From assembly GCF_900215325.1 (NCBI RefSeq), contig NZ_OCMS01000007.1, positions 1 through 48,034 on the forward strand: a stretch of DNA of 48,034 nt, written 5' to 3'. A program made the position numbers and the translations under genes. This DNA comes from Fibrobacter sp. UWB16 (lineage in GTDB: Bacteria > Fibrobacterota > Fibrobacteria > Fibrobacterales > Fibrobacteraceae). This document shows positions 1 through 47,043 of this stretch, one piece after another (the first letter of the stretch is position 1; each line of letters begins with the position of its first letter). The notes beneath the pieces were generated by a model that did no database searches, was not told the DNA's origin, and saw nothing but the letters and a program-made list of their open reading frames with translations.

Positions 1-64
1 ACTTGCATGTATAAGACACGCCACCAGCGTTCGTTCTGAGCCAGGATCAAACTCTTCATTGATT
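1..64 (-). rRNA. rrs: 16S ribosomal RNA, 5' end (partial)
   Basis: Read on the minus strand, the segment contains GAGTTTGATCCTGGCTCAG, the universal 5' primer site of bacterial 16S rRNA, followed by AACGAACGCTGGTGGCGTG and ACATGCAAGT. The rest of the gene lies beyond the left edge. The mature 5' end is placed near 64 by comparison with the E. coli 16S start, so it may be off by a few bases. Transcription runs leftwards out of the window. Confidence 0.97.
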
Positions 65-354: not shown

Positions 355-418
355 TTCTGTAAACAGAAATCTTTTTTGGCAGGGGGCGGAGGCCGGGGCG
401 CCAAAACACGAAAAGCGA

Positions 419-446
419 CTGGATCCTTCGCTCTGCTCAGGATGAC
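419..446. repeat. Dispersed palindromic repeat, family 1
   Basis: Copy of the ctggatccttcg...gctcaggatgac element found at least twelve times in the window. It is an imperfect palindrome and here lies in the non-coding stretch between the rRNA promoter and the first GH45 gene. Apart from this copy, the DnaA box and the terminator at 586-617, I see nothing in 270-650. Confidence 0.75.
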
Positions 447-585
447 GGGGTAAAATTCAGGGTGACAAGAGTGAAAAAAGGCAATTCCGGCATCCCGGAA
501 CTCGTCCAGGGCAGGTTCAAGCCAGGGTGACTGCGCGGACACTTCGGCTAATTCGACAGGCTCATCAACCAGCTTAGCGACCGTG

Positions 586-13293: not shown

Positions 13294-16281
13294 TTATTCA
13301 ACGTCCTTGCCGTGGCACTTCTTGTACTTGAGGCCAGAACCACACCAGCAGAGGTCATTGCGGCCGAGCTTTGCACCAGCCTGCTGCTGGGCGCGCTTCA
13401 CAGCGGCAGCAAGGGCGGCGTTAGCGGCAGCGGAGCGGTTCGGGCGAGTGCCCGGGAGTGCGCTCTGCGGCATCGGCTGTGCCTGCTGATCTTCAGAAAG
13501 GGCGTTCGTTTCAGAAGAAGCTGCCTGACCGGCGAGACCTGCGGCCTTTGCACCTTCGGCACTCAGCTGTTCGGAAGAACCTTCACTGGATCCTTCGCTT
13601 TGCTCAGGATGACTTTCTGCATTAGCATCGCCAGCGTTACCTGCGGCAGCGGCGGCTTCTTCAGCAGCCTTGCGTTCGGCATCGATCTGTTCCTGGCTCT
13701 TGAGCTGGAGCTGGTCCGGAGAAACCGTCACACCGTTCGGGAGCGTGATGCGGATGTTCAAAATGCGGAGAGCCGTAAGCGTTGCAATCTTTTCCATGCA
13801 GCTTTCGAACATCTTGAAGCCGTCGTTCTTGTAGACCATCAGCGGATCCTTCTGGGCGTATCCGTGGAAGCGGATAGCATCCTTCAGCTGGTCCATAGCA
13901 TACAAGTGTTCCTTCCACACCTGGTCAATCGTCATGAGGAGGAAGCGGCGTTCGATATTGCGGAAGTCGGCATCCGGAATAATCTTCGTGAGCTTGTCGT
14001 AACGCACCTTGCAAAGGTCGATGATTTCATCGAGCACCTGTTCCGGCGTCTTCGAAACAGCATCTTCAAGCGTAAGGCTGTATTCCATGCCGAGCGTGCG
14101 CTGCAAGTCTTCGTGCAAGCCTTCGAGGTTCCACTGTTCCGCATAGCTCTTTGCCGGGATGTAGTTAGAAACCTTGATATCGCAAGCGTCTTCGATGCGG
14201 TTCATGATTTCGTCACGGATATCTTCACCGTTCAAGATGCGGCGGCGGAGCCCGTAAATCACCTTGCGCTGTTCGTTCATCACGTTATCGTAGTCGAGCA
14301 AGTGCTTACGGATATCGAAGCTCTGACTTTCGACGCGGCGCTGTGCACCACGGATGGAACGGGAAACGATCGGGTGGGTAATCACTTCGTCTTCGCCCAC
14401 GCCAAAACGGTTCATGAGGTTCTTGACGTTGTCACCACCGAAGATACGCATCAGGTTATCGTCGAGGGAGAGGAAGTACTGGCTAGAACCCGGGTCACCC
14501 TGACGACCGGAACGACCGCGCAACTGGTTATCAATACGGCGAGATTCATGGCGTTCCGTACCGAGCACATGCAAACCGCCGAGTTCAGTCACTCCCGGTC
14601 CAAGAGCAATGTCAGTACCACGACCAGCCATGTTCGTTGCAATCGTCACCTTGTCCTTGTGACCAGCGTACTGAATGATTTCAGCTTCGCGGCCATGGTT
14701 CTTGGCGTTCAAGACTTCGTGCGGGATGCCTTCCTTTTCGAGCATGCCGTGGAGGATTTCGGACTTTTCAATGGAAGCCGTACCCACGAGGAGCGGCTGG
14801 CCCTTTGCATGGCGTTCCTTGATTTCAGCAACAATGGCGCGCCACTTGGCATCTTCGGACTTATAAACGAGGTCCTGCAAGTCCTTACGGATGCACGGCT
14901 TGTTTGTCGGAATGACCCACGTGTTCATGTTGTAAATCTTGATGAATTCCGTTGCTTCGGTTTCAGCCGTACCGGTCATACCGGAGAGCTTCTTGTACAT
15001 ACGGAAGTAGTTCTGGAACGTAATCGTTGCAAGCGTCTGGTTTTCGCGACGGATCTGCACGTTTTCCTTGGCTTCGATGGCCTGGTGGATACCGTTGGAG
15101 TAGCGGCGGCCTTCCATCAAGCGGCCCGTATTTTCGTCGACGATGATAATTTCACCGTCACGGACGATATAGTCGACATCCTTTTCGAAGAGGTACCAAG
15201 CGCGGAGAGCGTTATCGAGGAAGTGAACCCAGTCGGCATGTTCGCCATAGAGGTTCGTAATGTGCATCAAGTCCTGGATGTGGAGCACGCCCTTTTCGGT
15301 AAACTGGATGTTCTTGTCCTTTTCGTCGACAGAGAAGTCCTTGTTACGGACGAGCTGCTTTGCAATTTCGTTTGCCTTTGCATACTTTTCGGTAGCGTCT
15401 TCGGCAGGACCACTGATGATGAGCGGCGTACGGGCTTCATCAATCAAGATGGAGTCGACTTCGTCAACGATACAGAAGTTGAGTTCACGCTGCACGAGCT
15501 GGTTCGGTTCAACAGCCATGTTGTCGCGGAGGTAGTCGAAACCGAATTCGTTGTTGGTACCGTAAGTCACGTCGGAGTTGTAGCTTTGACGGCGCTGTTC
15601 CGCATCGAGGCCATTCACAATAAGACCAACCGTAAGGCCGAGGAACTTATAGACCAAGCCCATCTGCTTAGCGTCACGACCAGCGAGGTAATCGTTCACC
15701 GTCACCACATGCACGCCGTGGCCAGAAAGACCGTTCAAGTAAACCGGGAGAGCAGCGGCAAGCGTCTTACCTTCACCGGTAGCCATTTCAGCGATGGCAC
15801 CTTCGTGGAGCACGAGGCCACCGATCATCTGCACGTCGAAAGGCAACATACGGAACGGCTTCACGGATTCCGGATAGAGTTCGCGAACCTTAGCGTAGAG
15901 GGCAGCCGGGAGGTAGACTTCCCATTCGTTCTTTCCGCTTTCGAGTTCTGCCTTAGCCTTGTTCACGGCTTCCTGGAGTTCCGGGCCGAGGCGGCTAAAG
16001 TCAAAGCCAAATTCCGGCTTGAAGATGTTGAAGATACCGAGACGGCGGTCGCAAGCTTCGCGGCATACGGCAAAGGCATCAACCTTGATATCGTCGAGGG
16101 TAGCTCCATTATTCAGTTTTTCGCGGAATTCAGCGCTCTTTGCAGCAAGTTCCGCGTCATCGAGCGTTGCGAGAGCCTTGCAGGCTTCGTGAATCTTTGC
16201 AATCACCGGGCGGAGCTGTTTCACCTTACGTTCATGAGGTGTACCAAAAATCTTATGGAGTACTGTATCTACAATGCTCAT
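13294..16281 (-). CDS. secA: Protein translocase ATPase SecA
   Basis: Motor ATPase of the Sec export pathway, acting at SecYEG on the inner membrane. At 995 residues it is somewhat longer than the E. coli protein. Motifs: Walker A MATGEGKT, DEAD-like VDEVDSILIDEARTPLI, TGTAETEATEF, AGRGTDIALG and the helicase motif QLRGRSGRQGDPGSS. The C-terminus carries the zinc-binding SEC-C motif (CWCGSGLKYKKCHG). Before it is a low-complexity Ala/Glu/Ser linker in which residues about 890-899 (HPEQSEGS) are encoded by a family 1 dispersed repeat at 13586-13613. The start ATG has AAGGA upstream. The gene is divergent from the phosphatase operon. Confidence 0.98.
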   Translation of the reverse strand: MSIVDTVLHKIFGTPHERKVKQLRPVIAKIHEACKALATLDDAELAAKSAEFREKLNNGATLDDIKVDAFAVCREACDRRLGIFNIFKPEFGFDFSRLGPELQEAVNKAKAELESGKNEWEVYLPAALYAKVRELYPESVKPFRMLPFDVQMIGGLVLHEGAIAEMATGEGKTLAAALPVYLNGLSGHGVHVVTVNDYLAGRDAKQMGLVYKFLGLTVGLIVNGLDAEQRRQSYNSDVTYGTNNEFGFDYLRDNMAVEPNQLVQRELNFCIVDEVDSILIDEARTPLIISGPAEDATEKYAKANEIAKQLVRNKDFSVDEKDKNIQFTEKGVLHIQDLMHITNLYGEHADWVHFLDNALRAWYLFEKDVDYIVRDGEIIIVDENTGRLMEGRRYSNGIHQAIEAKENVQIRRENQTLATITFQNYFRMYKKLSGMTGTAETEATEFIKIYNMNTWVIPTNKPCIRKDLQDLVYKSEDAKWRAIVAEIKERHAKGQPLLVGTASIEKSEILHGMLEKEGIPHEVLNAKNHGREAEIIQYAGHKDKVTIATNMAGRGTDIALGPGVTELGGLHVLGTERHESRRIDNQLRGRSGRQGDPGSSQYFLSLDDNLMRIFGGDNVKNLMNRFGVGEDEVITHPIVSRSIRGAQRRVESQSFDIRKHLLDYDNVMNEQRKVIYGLRRRILNGEDIRDEIMNRIEDACDIKVSNYIPAKSYAEQWNLEGLHEDLQRTLGMEYSLTLEDAVSKTPEQVLDEIIDLCKVRYDKLTKIIPDADFRNIERRFLLMTIDQVWKEHLYAMDQLKDAIRFHGYAQKDPLMVYKNDGFKMFESCMEKIATLTALRILNIRITLPNGVTVSPDQLQLKSQEQIDAERKAAEEAAAAAGNAGDANAESHPEQSEGSSEGSSEQLSAEGAKAAGLAGQAASSETNALSEDQQAQPMPQSALPGTRPNRSAAANAALAAAVKRAQQQAGAKLGRNDLCWCGSGLKYKKCHGKDVE
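13586..13613. repeat. Family 1 repeat inside secA
   Basis: A 28-base near-consensus copy (ctggatccttcgctttgctc then aggatgac) read in frame through the C-terminal linker of SecA, adding the peptide ESHPEQSEGSS. It lies in a tolerant region between the motor core and the zinc tail. Confidence 0.85.
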
Positions 16282-43675: not shown

Positions 43676-45358
43676 TTAGAATTTGGCCTTCAAAGCAGAC
43701 GGGCATTCGACTTCTTTATAAGTGTGGTTCGGGTTGCCTGCAGCTTCCATCCATGTGGCGAGGAAGAGGCAGCCTTCCTTGGCCTGGGTGTCACTTCCGA
43801 AGGACTTGTTGCATTTTTCGGTGAGGCACTGCTTACGCTTGGTCAAGAGGTCGCCACTGTATCCGACTTCGCTTTCGCATTCGGTGAGGAGACCGCCGTA
43901 TGTCGCACCTTGGCTGCCCCAGCCCATGCCTGAGCAACCGTTGTACAAACCGACACCGCCACCCGGGATCATAATGTCAAACTGGCCACCCTGCACGTCG
44001 TAACCGATGTTCGATGCCATCACGACGAGAGTCTTGCCTGCAAGTGCCTTGTGGTTTGCCTTGGTTTCGTACTTGCCGGTACCGGTGAAGGTGAGGGCGA
44101 AGCACTTGCCGCATGTGGCGTCGTTACCCGGAGTTGCAGCGAATGCGTAGGCGAGCTTGTCGCTCACGATTATAGGAATCTGGCTTGTGCATGTCGTGCC
44201 CTGGCCACCAGAGCAGATACTGCCGTTCGTGTTGCCGATTGGGGTCTTGCCCTTGGCATCGCAAGTCTTGGCAGCGCCACCGTGTTCCGGCCAAGCGCAG
44301 TGAGGCATGCAGCAGTCCCAGTAACGGGTTGCAAAGCCCTGCTGTCCACCAGCACCTGCATTGAGGTACTTGGCTTCTTCAGCACCTGCGTTGGGGTTGT
44401 TCTGCTGTTGCTGCTGGCTAGACGAAGATTTCGGCTGGCTGCTGGAGGACTTCGGCTGTTGCTGCTGCTGAGAAGAAGAGGATTTCGGCTGCTGCTGTTG
44501 CTGAGACGAAGAAGACTTCACGCTGGAGCTGGACTTCGGCTGTTCGGACGGGCTGCTTGCCGGTGCGGAGCCGGTGATGTTCTGGCAATTCTTATTGTCA
44601 GGATCGTAGTAGCAGTTTAACTTGCAAGATTCGTCGTAGGCGTATTTTTCGCCCTTAGAGCCTGTGAGCTGTTCGTGATATCCAACGCACTTGCTAGAAG
44701 CGTTATCATAGCATTGGCCGTCGCACTGCTTGCCTGATGTGTTGGCGGAGGACTTCGGCTGTTGCTGTTGTGAAGAAGAGCTTGCGACAGGCTGTTCTGT
44801 CTTTTGAGAAGAGGAGGACACGGCAGGCGTCGGGGTCGGCGTCTTGGCGGAGCTGGAGCTCACGGCCGGAGTGCCCGGATTGTAGACGGAAGAACTGCTT
44901 ACGGTAACAGTGCCCGGAACAGTTGTTGAAGAGCTGCTCACGGTGATACCGTTCGAAAGCGGAACGAGTTCCCCATTGACGATGGCAAGTCTTGTACCGT
45001 CGAGGTATGTGACGGTCTTGTCTGTGCTCAAGATGGGGAGGGTGCTAGTGTCAACATTGGTAATGACAACGTTGCCGTTTAAGTCGTAAATCGTGCCTGT
45101 TGCGACATCGTAAGTGCCGTAAGGAATGCTGAACGGATCAGTGACAGTATAGGTGCCCAATGCGTCAGGCTTAATAAGCAAAGTCTGCGTACCGATATTT
45201 AACATCCAGCAGTTTATATCGACTTCAAATGCATCCTTTGGCTGGACAACGGGGGTTTCGGATGTGTGTTGCGCTGATGTTGCTGGATCGTCAGAGCAGT
45301 TCCATGCGATAACGGAAAGTCCAAAAATGGCGAGGGTTTTGAAAAATTTATTCTTCAT
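43676..45358 (-). CDS. GH45 endoglucanase with two Ser-rich linkers and Cys-rich module
   Basis: 560 residues. N-terminal signal ending AWNCSDD (Cys present, lipobox not canonical), a beta-rich N-terminal domain (about 35-135: GTIYDLNGNVVITNVDTSTLPIL), a Ser linker, a small Cys-rich module (QCDGQCYDNASSKCVGYHEQ ... DPDNKNCQN, six Cys), a Ser/Gln linker (SSSQQQQQPK units) and a GH45 catalytic domain. Catalytic Asp residues occur in ATRYWDCCMPHCAWPEH and GQFDIMIPGGGVGLYNGC. Both half-sites and C-terminal GNPNHTYKEVECP are intact. Role: hydrolysis of beta-1,4-glucan, probably at the cell surface. It is tandem with the 45577 gene, each with its own terminator. Confidence 0.94.
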   Translation of the reverse strand: MKNKFFKTLAIFGLSVIAWNCSDDPATSAQHTSETPVVQPKDAFEVDINCWMLNIGTQTLLIKPDALGTYTVTDPFSIPYGTYDVATGTIYDLNGNVVITNVDTSTLPILSTDKTVTYLDGTRLAIVNGELVPLSNGITVSSSSTTVPGTVTVSSSSVYNPGTPAVSSSSAKTPTPTPAVSSSSQKTEQPVASSSSQQQQPKSSANTSGKQCDGQCYDNASSKCVGYHEQLTGSKGEKYAYDESCKLNCYYDPDNKNCQNITGSAPASSPSEQPKSSSSVKSSSSQQQQQPKSSSSQQQQQPKSSSSQPKSSSSQQQQQNNPNAGAEEAKYLNAGAGGQQGFATRYWDCCMPHCAWPEHGGAAKTCDAKGKTPIGNTNGSICSGGQGTTCTSQIPIIVSDKLAYAFAATPGNDATCGKCFALTFTGTGKYETKANHKALAGKTLVVMASNIGYDVQGGQFDIMIPGGGVGLYNGCSGMGWGSQGATYGGLLTECESEVGYSGDLLTKRKQCLTEKCNKSFGSDTQAKEGCLFLATWMEAAGNPNHTYKEVECPSALKAKF

Positions 45359-45522
45359 GATATAGTAAGCCCTTATAATTATTATATCACACCCTGTATT
45401 CCAATCATCCGCGGTAAAAGATAAAATCTTATTGTTTGAATTGCTCGTAAATAAGAGTAAAAAGAACTATACAATGACAATTTGTGCGGTTTAGCACAAC
45501 TTATTTATTATCAAAGACTTAC

Positions 45523-45554
45523 AAAAAAGAAAAACGCCCCTGTTCGGGGCGTTT
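45523..45554 (-). terminator. Terminator of the third GH45 gene
   Basis: AACGCCCC (45533-45540) and GGGGCGTT (45546-45553) with a T-rich run on the minus strand (45523-45532). Confidence 0.85.
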
Positions 45555-45576
45555 AGTTCCGTTTTAGACTTTTAGA

Positions 45577-47043
45577 TTAATACTTGTCTTTAAGAACTTG
45601 CGGGCATTCCACTTCGACGTAGTCATGCATCGGGTTGCCTGCGCCGTGCATAAATTCAGCAAGGAAGAGGCAGCCTTGTTTTGCCTTGGCATCGTTGCTG
45701 AACACTTCGGCACACTTGCTCTTGAGGCAGGACAAGGTTGCAGATGCGTTGTAGTTTTTAGCCTTTTCGCAATCGGAGAGGAGGCCGCCGTACTGTTCGC
45801 CCTGCGGGCCCCAGCCCATGGAAGAGCATCCGTTGAACATACCGACGCCACCGCCAGGAATCATGATGTCGAACTGACCTTGCTGAACGTCACCACCGAT
45901 ATTTGTTGTCATGATGATGAGCTTCTTGTCCTTGATGGCTCTGTGGTTTGCATCGGTCGAGTACTTGCCCTTGCCTGTGAAGGTGAGCTGGTAGCACTTG
46001 CCGCAAGAACCACCATCGCTTGCAGGCACTGCTGCGAATGCAAAGCCCATTTCGGTACAGCCGTCAATCGTAAACGGAATCTGGCTTGTGCAGGTCATCT
46101 GGGGACCGCCGCTGCAGATACTGCCGTCGCCCCAGTTCGTGTTTTCAGACTGACCCTTGTTGGTGCACTGCTTGGAGTAATTGCCGCCTGCATGTTCCGG
46201 CCAGGAGCAGTGAGGCTTGCAGCAGTCCCAGTAACGGGTTGCCCAGCCAGATCCTCTCTTGCCGCCGCTCTTCACCTTAATATTTGGGCATTGGCCAGTG
46301 ACGACAGAGGAACTGCTGCTCTTCGGGGCAGAACTACTGCTTTTCGGCTGAGAGCTGCTGCTCTTGGGGGTAGAAGAACTGCTGCTCTTCGGGGTGGGTG
46401 GCACGTAAGAAGAGGAGCTATTGGTGATGTTGTTGCTACTGCTGCTGTAAACCGGAGGAACGTCTGCACTCGAAGACGATGCGATGGGGGAGATGTAGTC
46501 CACGCATCTGGAGTTCGGCTGCAAAATAGGGAGCGACATGATGTTGGCTTGGGTCAGCACAGTACCGTTGAAGTCTGTGATGATGCCTGTCGTGAAGTTT
46601 GCGATACCAATCTGCTTTCCATCCGGGTCGGTCACGATCGAACTGGCGTAGATGAGGTAATTCCCGGTAGCGTCCTTCAGGTGGAAAACGTTGTCGATAG
46701 TCTTGAAACGGACGTTGTCACCAAATATAACTGTAGTTGCAAGGAGGTTGACATTGCTGATGAGCAAGTTACCGGACAAATCCACGATATTGACGTTCGA
46801 AGAATTCGGAATCGCTGTGATAAAGCCGATCTGGACGCCTGCCTCGTCTGTAACGGTCAAGTCACTATAGCCAAGGTAAATACGGTCTCCAGACAAAAGC
46901 CAAGCATTATCGCACGACGTAATGGTAGACTGCTGCTCAGGAACGCCATCATCGCTGCTGGAAGATGGCTTGTCGTCTGAGCAAGAACAAGCTAAAACAA
47001 TCGTCCCAAGAGAAAGAAGGGACTTTAAAAGGGGGTATTTCAT
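45577..47043 (-). CDS. GH45 endoglucanase, lipoprotein with beta-rich N-terminal domain
   Basis: 488 residues. Signal with VLACSCSDDK, an N-terminal beta-rich region of about 165 residues with repeated motifs (GNLLISNVNLLATTVIFGD; GTVLTQANIMSLPIL), a Ser/Pro/Lys linker (SSSSTPKSSSSQPKSSSS) and a C-terminal GH45 domain: ATRYWDCCKPHCSWPEHAGG, GGSCGKCYQLTF, GQFDIMIPGGGVGMFNGC, GEQYGGLLSDCE, AGNPMHDYVEVECP. Both catalytic Asp residues are present. It is closely related to the 43676 gene, suggesting tandem duplication; the first GH45 (651) is more distant. AGGAA ribosome site. Confidence 0.94.
   Translation of the reverse strand: MKYPLLKSLLSLGTIVLACSCSDDKPSSSSDDGVPEQQSTITSCDNAWLLSGDRIYLGYSDLTVTDEAGVQIGFITAIPNSSNVNIVDLSGNLLISNVNLLATTVIFGDNVRFKTIDNVFHLKDATGNYLIYASSIVTDPDGKQIGIANFTTGIITDFNGTVLTQANIMSLPILQPNSRCVDYISPIASSSSADVPPVYSSSSNNITNSSSSYVPPTPKSSSSSTPKSSSSQPKSSSSAPKSSSSSVVTGQCPNIKVKSGGKRGSGWATRYWDCCKPHCSWPEHAGGNYSKQCTNKGQSENTNWGDGSICSGGPQMTCTSQIPFTIDGCTEMGFAFAAVPASDGGSCGKCYQLTFTGKGKYSTDANHRAIKDKKLIIMTTNIGGDVQQGQFDIMIPGGGVGMFNGCSSMGWGPQGEQYGGLLSDCEKAKNYNASATLSCLKSKCAEVFSNDAKAKQGCLFLAEFMHGAGNPMHDYVEVECPQVLKDKY

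Follow-up and report, generated by a model that had tools for sequence, protein, structure and literature searches.

GH45 cellulases of Fibrobacter sp. UWB16 as candidate surface lipoproteins with a membrane-proximal domain

Fibrobacter digests crystalline cellulose without a cellulosome and mostly without recognizable carbohydrate-binding modules (CBMs) on its cellulases. Here, we address the question how its enzymes stay near both the cell and the fibre, using one whole contig of 48,034 bases from Fibrobacter sp. UWB16 (NZ_OCMS01000007.1; hereafter the window), which carries three genes for cellulases of glycoside hydrolase family 45 (GH45), all on the minus strand. Two of them lie in tandem, P0001 (43676..45358, 560 amino acids) and P0002 (45577..47043, 488 amino acids), the third, P0003 (651..2120, 489 amino acids), is located about 42 kb away, and a fourth GH45 gene resides on another contig of this genome. 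With slightly better than even confidence we read these GH45 proteins as cellulases displayed on the cell surface as lipoproteins, in which a pedestal close to the membrane is followed by a Ser stalk and some of which also carry a small disulfide module.

Domain order and lipoprotein-like signals

Translated and compared with the GH45 family PF02015 (cut-off 27 bits), the three proteins score 92.5 bits (P0001; E 4.6e-26), 108.5 bits (P0002; E 5.8e-31) and 82 bits (P0003; E 7.4e-23), and they differ in the modules that accompany this domain, as a preliminary description of the locus had stated. P0001 consists of a signal, the putative lipid Cys21, one 57-residue unit, a Ser linker, a six-Cys module, a Ser/Gln linker and the GH45 domain. 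P0002 is built from a signal, the putative lipid Cys19 or Cys21, two such units, a Ser linker and the GH45 domain. In P0003, the signal and Cys26 are followed by a long Ser linker and a GH45 domain with insertions and a 56-residue C-terminal extension; as already described, this protein has neither the unit nor the Cys module.

Missing from the preliminary description were the lipoprotein-like signals; all three proteins show a basic N-terminus, a hydrophobic stretch and a Cys near residue 15-30. By sequence, their lipobox-like starts continue into Ser-Asp-Asp, namely AWNC-SDD in P0001 (signal up to Cys21 and the LES-like stretch, LES being the lipoprotein export signal of Bacteroidota; 45296..45358, minus strand), ACSC-SDD in P0002 and FSAC-SDD in P0003, and each has a polar residue at +2 and an acid pair at +3/+4, in P0002 if the protein is lipidated on Cys21. 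To judge how general this is, we scanned 176 distinct GH45 proteins of the genus and its neighbours (near-copies kept) with a lipobox rule of our own rather than a dedicated predictor. By this rule, 168 of them have a lipobox; among the 8 others, some visibly have a signal and some are cut or have a wrong start codon. Asp or Glu occupies +3 in 86% and +4 in 84% of the lipobox-bearing proteins, and the acid pair is present in 119 of the 168. BamD and Pal, which we take to be periplasm-facing, served as controls: the pair occurs in 0/13 BamD proteins of the genus, two of which were read by eye and one of which has Asp-Asp at +4/+5, and in 0/10 Pal proteins with a readable signal (12 Pal, 2 unreadable). 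The own genome also holds 87 matches to FISUMP (TIGR02145); from the best 30 of these, 26 distinct proteins were read, of which 16 have a lipoprotein-like signal and 10 no readable one, and 8 of the 16 bear the acid pair. From the sequence, lipid anchoring of the GH45 proteins appears likely; their surface exposure is fairly likely, as indicated by an LES-like acidic motif that BamD and Pal lack.

According to the proposed mechanism, the signal would be cleaved and the lipidated Cys would fix the GH45 protein in the outer membrane, where the Ser/Gly-Asp/Glu-Asp/Glu stretch would act like a Bacteroidota LES and direct it to the outer face. One or two 57-residue units would come next in P0001 and P0002 and form a folded pedestal at the membrane, which may rest on the lipid or lipopolysaccharide surface or pack with its neighbours, and the long Ser-rich stalk would bring the GH45 domain to the cellulose. 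The stalk of P0001 would in addition hold the small disulfide module, which probably binds substrate or a partner, and P0003 would have anchor and stalk only. Lipidation, outer-face exposure, the pedestal function and the role of the Cys module are what we infer in this proposal from computed properties, i.e. GH45 identity, module borders, distribution, order, Cys covariation and the homology of the unit to domains that score with DUF3659 and beta-flower families.

The 57-residue unit

The unit comprises 57 residues with the consensus AWLLDADQDYLIYPDGVVTDANGNPVGTFDTATGTIVDLDGNPIVTNVDLSTLPVVT, derived from 165 non-redundant units, and bears a mostly conserved Trp and Tyr. It occurs once in P0001 (45029..45211, minus strand; unit profile E 9.5e-20) and twice in P0002 (46726-46905 and 46519-46686, minus strand; unit profile), and the GN.xISNV-like pieces that the preliminary description had found in both N-termini of the tandem pair turn out to be part of it. 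The profile matches in these two proteins have E values from 7.9e-17 to 9.5e-20 in the own genome, where the unit is otherwise present in one stand-alone lipoprotein. Among the 176 GH45 proteins, 31 have no copy, 78 one, 50 two and 17 three. Wherever it is found with GH45, the unit is N-terminal to the catalytic domain (145/145 proteins), with median distances of 27 residues from the preceding lipid Cys (141 proteins) and 111 residues to the GH45 domain (145 proteins).

A search of 167 genomes of the phylum detected the unit in 80/80 genomes of the genus, in 11/31 other genomes of the family and in 0/56 beyond, the last group being placed by list order and not listed singly. GH45 itself is present in 79/80, 29/31 and 14/56 of these genomes; the outcome of a smaller search, by which GH45 seemed confined to the genus (0/16 outside), is wrong by this count. 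GH45 is also found in 90 of the 91 unit-bearing genomes, the exception (G115) being 70% complete. Outside the unit clade, neither unit nor Cys module was detected in 25 GH45 open reading frames of 20 regions from the family and phylum; these GH45s stand behind a plain signal peptide or are lipoprotein-like without a unit, and lipid anchoring therefore appears to be older than the unit. Secretion of such GH45s by the type IX secretion system (T9SS) was considered on account of sorting-like C-termini seen by eye in those with a plain signal peptide and was dropped, since the only one scanned (L166) has no T9SS match.

Other proteins carry the unit too. By eye, it follows the lipobox in one GH8 protein (L209) and in three FISUMP proteins (L210, L211), of which the GH8 and one FISUMP carrier were confirmed by profile; a further candidate, L212 (0.0046), was rejected as it resembles a carboxypeptidase-regulatory-like repeat. 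A stand-alone lipoprotein of 114-140 residues, with one unit, a lipobox recognized by eye and little else, was read in seven genomes (L092:3677-4051 on contig C1 of the own genome, L213-L218). The unit thus follows the lipid anchor whatever comes next, be it GH45, GH8, FISUMP or nothing, and is therefore an anchor-side part, which we infer to be the membrane-proximal pedestal.

With regard to the fold, AlphaFold2 models the two-unit domain of P0002 (46486..46920, minus strand; flanking Cys44 and Cys180) with 12 strands at a pLDDT of 87.3 and a pTM of 0.65, the five models ranging from 76.7 to 87.3. If successive predicted strands are taken as hairpins, each unit holds three beta-hairpins, and the motif [DNEQ]xxG occupies five of the six turns of P0002. 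At two turn columns it is kept in 71% and 48% of the 165 units, with a shuffled maximum of 9%. Beta-flowers are described in passages of PMC10584680 as having 8, 10 or 12 strands, the [DNEQ]xxG motif and sometimes lipoprotein motifs. The N-terminal domains of the window proteins gave no Pfam or NCBIfam match worth keeping, DUF3659 and the beta-flower families included. DUF3659 (PF12396) is weakly matched by 14 of 38 two-unit domains, at best with E 0.0025. Ten relatives with more regular N-terminal domains, picked for this regular look so that the counts are not blind, give clearer scores: 8/10 match DUF3659 at E<=1, three of them above the cut-off (30.3, 25.9 and 25.2 versus 24.8 bits), and 8/10 match Bflower_2 (PF21785) at E<=1, none above the cut-off (best 28.4 versus 38 bits, L162). 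The link from these relatives back to the window is firm at the sequence level. Hereby, hhalign aligns the unit domain with those relatives at a probability of 99.0% and E 7e-18 over 107 columns with no rows in common, and a profile of nine units matches 11 proteins of eight relatives' loci with full-sequence E<=1.4e-5 and best domains from 3.7e-8 to 0.009, the search space being set to 1000. The unit domain is hence taken as homologous to the DUF3659/beta-flower-scoring domains. We call it beta-flower-like, not a member, because it lies below the Pfam cut-off and closure of the strands into the shallow symmetric barrel of beta-flowers is unseen. The suggestion of the preliminary description that the N-terminal domains may be new stands insofar as they match no known CBM or anchor family; they do have kin through relatives which match DUF3659 and, below the cut-off, Bflower_2.

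The same evidence bears on the reading that the 57-residue unit is a new, unnamed glucan-binding CBM holding the GH45 domain to cellulose, which we regard as unlikely. It would agree with the occurrence of the unit mostly on cellulases (GH45, once GH8), with its Trp and Tyr, and with the lack of recognizable CBMs in most Fibrobacter cellulases, as passages of the S85 genome paper have it (PMC3079729). Fold matches to solved structures (Foldseek, VIA-align) are all weak for both the unit domain and the Cys module, and they would still leave room for a CBM fold. However, the unit sits at the membrane end rather than next to the enzyme, it is also found by itself in the short lipoprotein and in FISUMP proteins that lack a glycosidase domain, and neither of the families to which it scores closest, DUF3659 and Bflower_2, is a CBM family. 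No CBM family of Pfam matches the window N-terminal domains, the two-unit domains or the Cys module. Among PDB sequences, ComZ (0.0015) aligns with the unit over just 23 positions and SusC/teneurin matches are weaker; none was convincing.

The six-Cys module and alternative readings of the display parts

The Cys module of P0001 (44576..44737, minus strand; profile 1.6e-28) lies between two Ser-rich linkers, just as the preliminary description had it. It is modelled with a pLDDT of 90.7 and a pTM of 0.70 and has no clear solved relative. We found it in 14/25 genomes of the genus and in 0/16 others searched; 14 of 16 matches fall in GH45 clusters and 2 in GH5 proteins (L090, L091), and L090, which was scanned, combines GH5 with a T9SS tail (TIGR04183). 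In 36/36 proteins it is C-terminal to the unit. In the carriers seen, the module goes with cellulases irrespective of their anchor, with GH45 lipoproteins as well as with a T9SS-tailed GH5, and is therefore the better candidate for a binding module, probably for substrate or a partner; being short and confidently modelled, it offers itself as such a candidate. Its first and third Cys are both present in 27 and both absent in 11 of 38 proteins with 0 discordant, and that they never occur alone argues for a disulfide. Presumably this is not the Kunitz pairing, which speaks against a Kunitz identity. Matches of the module to Scytovirin (0.0053, 2/33 members), Meleagrin (0.0085, 4/33), Kunitz (0.014, 1/33) and, as a PDB chain, conkunitzin (0.08) were rejected as too weak. 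In VIA-align, the best Z is 4.0, which fibronectin type I modules (44 residues, rmsd 3.0) share with other entries.

Other GH45s hold a different module ('GNITVxGxLxQTV...') at the same place, unnamed by Pfam in the three proteins scanned. An unnamed module 'GNITVTGNLTQTVAKNASISTIVFSGV...' stands in for the Cys module in some Fibrobacter GH45s (L220:579-2468, L044:1492-3213 and others), and two Cys modules are present in one long GH45 protein of a metagenome-assembled genome (MAG) from horse faeces (L130:6723-9512). Placed on a tree of 197 GH45 domains that was built quickly and has 53 of 194 inner branches poorly supported, six architecture labels require 54 changes versus a shuffled mean of 118; the modules therefore change often, though not at random.

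A second alternative, which we consider quite unlikely, is that the GH45s are inner-leaflet lipoproteins which face the periplasm and cut cellodextrins there. Periplasmic hydrolysis is part of a model for strain S85 that is discussed in passages of PMC4668043. The acid pair, which 119 of the 168 GH45s bear and BamD and Pal lack, stands against this location of the GH45 proteins. Long Ser stalks are unusual in periplasmic enzymes, and they too argue against it.

Equally improbable in our judgement is that the unit, and likewise the Cys module, serves as a passive spacer that evolves fast and binds no partner: the variation of the unit number from 0 to 3 and the 54 architecture changes would suit it, while the conserved [DNEQ]xxG turn columns, the concordance of the first and third Cys in 38/38 Cys modules and at least seven genomes with a stand-alone unit protein speak against it.

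We think it less likely still that a single unit is half a beta-flower and that units of different lipoproteins pair in trans on the cell surface. The partners would be two GH45s, a GH45 and a GH8, or a GH45 and the stand-alone unit lipoprotein, sometimes Cys-locked, and in P0002 and other two-unit proteins the two units would close with each other; if true, this would be a dockerin-free assembly of cellulases on a membrane. Apart from the lipid Cys and the Cys module, the N-terminal part of P0001 has a single Cys, Cys50, which precedes the unit, and this lone Cys before a single unit suggests that single units may pair between molecules. Exactly one such Cys in or around the unit is found in 30/78 single-unit GH45s, and the pattern is not general. 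The pairing is disfavoured by the absence of a Cys there in 31/78 single-unit GH45s, by a linker Cys, and thus a possible inner partner, in 10/15 start-Cys proteins without Cys module, and by Cys residues flanking both sides in only 2/49 two-unit proteins (P0002 and its near-copy); such flanking Cys are seen in 10/16 three-unit proteins.

Several observations weigh against the GH45s being surface lipoproteins with a beta-flower-like pedestal. The residue at -1 of the lipobox is Asn in 104 of the 168 GH45 proteins and hence non-classical, the classical residue being Gly, Ala or Ser. Because the GH45s are related, their shared acid motif partly reflects common ancestry. In a blind sample of 400 kb with 37 putative lipoproteins of the own genome, an acid occupies +3 in 49% and +4 in 38%, and the acid pair is not significantly associated with surface-type architecture (6/8 versus 12/29, p 0.12) in this own-genome sample, which was drawn with a crude rule and contains visible false positives. 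P0003 and the 31 of 176 GH45s without detectable unit show the unit to be dispensable for anchoring. Foldseek gave no match at E<=0.001 in PDB and BFVD for the unit domain or the Cys module, and the best Z of the unit domain in VIA-align is only 4.3 (sialidases, rmsd 3.0, 52 residues), a weak value; the best VIA-align matches of both modules may represent a common arrangement only. In the structure prediction and comparison that the preliminary description had proposed, no confident match to a solved structure thus emerged by sequence or by fold. Finally, passages of PMC4668043 report that cellulose-degrading carbohydrate-active enzymes (CAZymes) are more extracellular than outer-membrane or periplasmic, and that none of them is statistically assignable to the outer membrane.

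Catalytic domains, gene context and comparison with known systems

The catalytic domains, delimited by the PF02015 profile and alignment, span 43679..44353 in P0001 (WDCCM) and 45580..46278 in P0002 (WDCCK), both on the minus strand. The Asp of TRYWD and the Asp of QFDxMxPGGG, whose catalytic roles we take from HiCel45A, are invariant in 11/11 aligned domains including all three of the window. Pfam and NCBIfam scans of the three proteins gave nothing of note besides GH45, and the T9SS sorting domain TIGR04183 has no match in them. The catalytic domains of P0001 and P0002 are 58.2% identical, those of P0002 and P0003 37.8% and those of P0001 and P0003 43.2%; the P0002 domain is identical over 225 residues to that of a Fibrobacter MAG (L093, the closest named record). 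In the tree, P0001 and P0002 belong to different groups, and P0003 is placed, separate from the tandem pair, in a 32-row group whose members are mostly of WDAC type. As two of the three rows nearest to P0003 have the unit, its absence from P0003 may be a loss.

For P0003, the preliminary description had pointed to an Ala in place of one Cys of WDCCK and to an insertion of about 45 residues. The Ala is there (WDACK), but it is not an isolated change. In 83 rows readable at both motifs (4 unreadable rows dropped; some rows are copies of one gene), the first Cys of WDCC is accompanied by a second Cys at PGGGxGxFNGC in 47/47 cases; of the 36 rows in which the first is missing, 29 are missing the second as well and 7 are Ser/Cys. 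This joint presence and absence fits the loss of one disulfide. The figure of 45 residues is right as a net value against P0002, but it arises from 49 residues inserted at nine places (the largest 16 and 14) and 4 deleted, to which the C-terminal extension is added. The differences between the GH45s of the window are old paralogue differences, not oddities of one genome; the enzymes themselves are ordinary GH45, and the new part is the display system around them.

A terminator-like hairpin with 9 pairs and a T tail (45532..45554, minus strand), a consensus match only, separates the tandem genes, which are therefore probably separate transcription units; a second one, likewise a consensus match only, lies 3' of P0001 (43606..43632, minus strand). 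The contig breaks off within a 16S rRNA gene, of which the initial 62 bases are present at window positions 1-62 (minus strand). The contig bearing the fourth GH45 gene (C3) ends in a 95-base stretch (L033:2997-3091) that is 98% identical, with a shared 290-base leader at 97%. Two GH45 genes thus adjoin rRNA operons, which explains the contig break. An interspersed repeat of 29-30 bases is located at window 418-447, again at 13585 and 20199, and in other stretches of the own genome.

Among known systems, the start of the GH45 proteins resembles the LES of Bacteroidota, with a polar residue at +2 and acids at +3/+4, as in SDDDD of B. fragilis, in which, according to passages of PMC5080379, Ser occupies +2 and positions +3 and +4 are mostly Asp. 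It differs in that the host belongs to another phylum, the Fibrobacterota, and the motif is a putative one here. The single literature search made, combining 'lipoprotein export signal' with 'Fibrobacter', returned no paper from the library searched; if our reading is true, LES-type export extends beyond Bacteroidota. With beta-flowers (PF21784/PF21785/PF21786) and DUF3659, the unit domain shares hairpin repeats, [DNEQ]xxG turns, 12 predicted strands and lipoprotein motifs, the last being known from some beta-flowers. In contrast to these families, the window sequences do not score, the relatives stay below the Bflower_2 cut-off, and the units are three-hairpin pieces in one, two or three copies. 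No paper was found in a search of the library for Fibrobacter with beta-flower, and the beta-flower-like domain would gain a biological setting if the proposal is true. Like the CBMs of cellulases, the modules are small and joined to the glycoside hydrolase domain by linkers; unlike them, they match no CBM family, and the unit stands at the anchor end.

The closest comparison is that with F. succinogenes S85, which we made by its published description. Passages of the S85 genome paper (PMC3079729) report no evidence of membrane- or cell-wall-anchoring domains in any cellulase, list no CBM for the GH45s and list no signal peptide for two of the four. Here, in contrast, lipoprotein-like signals and N-terminal modules are seen, and the S85 result could follow if lipoprotein signals were perhaps not looked for. 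Passages of PMC6851124 give cell-envelope quantities for two GH45 proteins of S85, of which FSU_1893 is up on cellulose and FSU_1947 is unchanged. A lipid anchor with an LES-like signal and a genus-wide pedestal domain would be a concrete, testable answer to the question of how GH45 enzymes stay near cell and fibre. The gene sets of the two organisms agree: according to passages of PMC3079729, S85 has four GH45 genes (Fisuc_1425/1426, 1473, 1933), two with consecutive numbers and a third 47 numbers away, and the genome of Fibrobacter sp. UWB16 likewise has four, with a tandem pair and a third at a distance.

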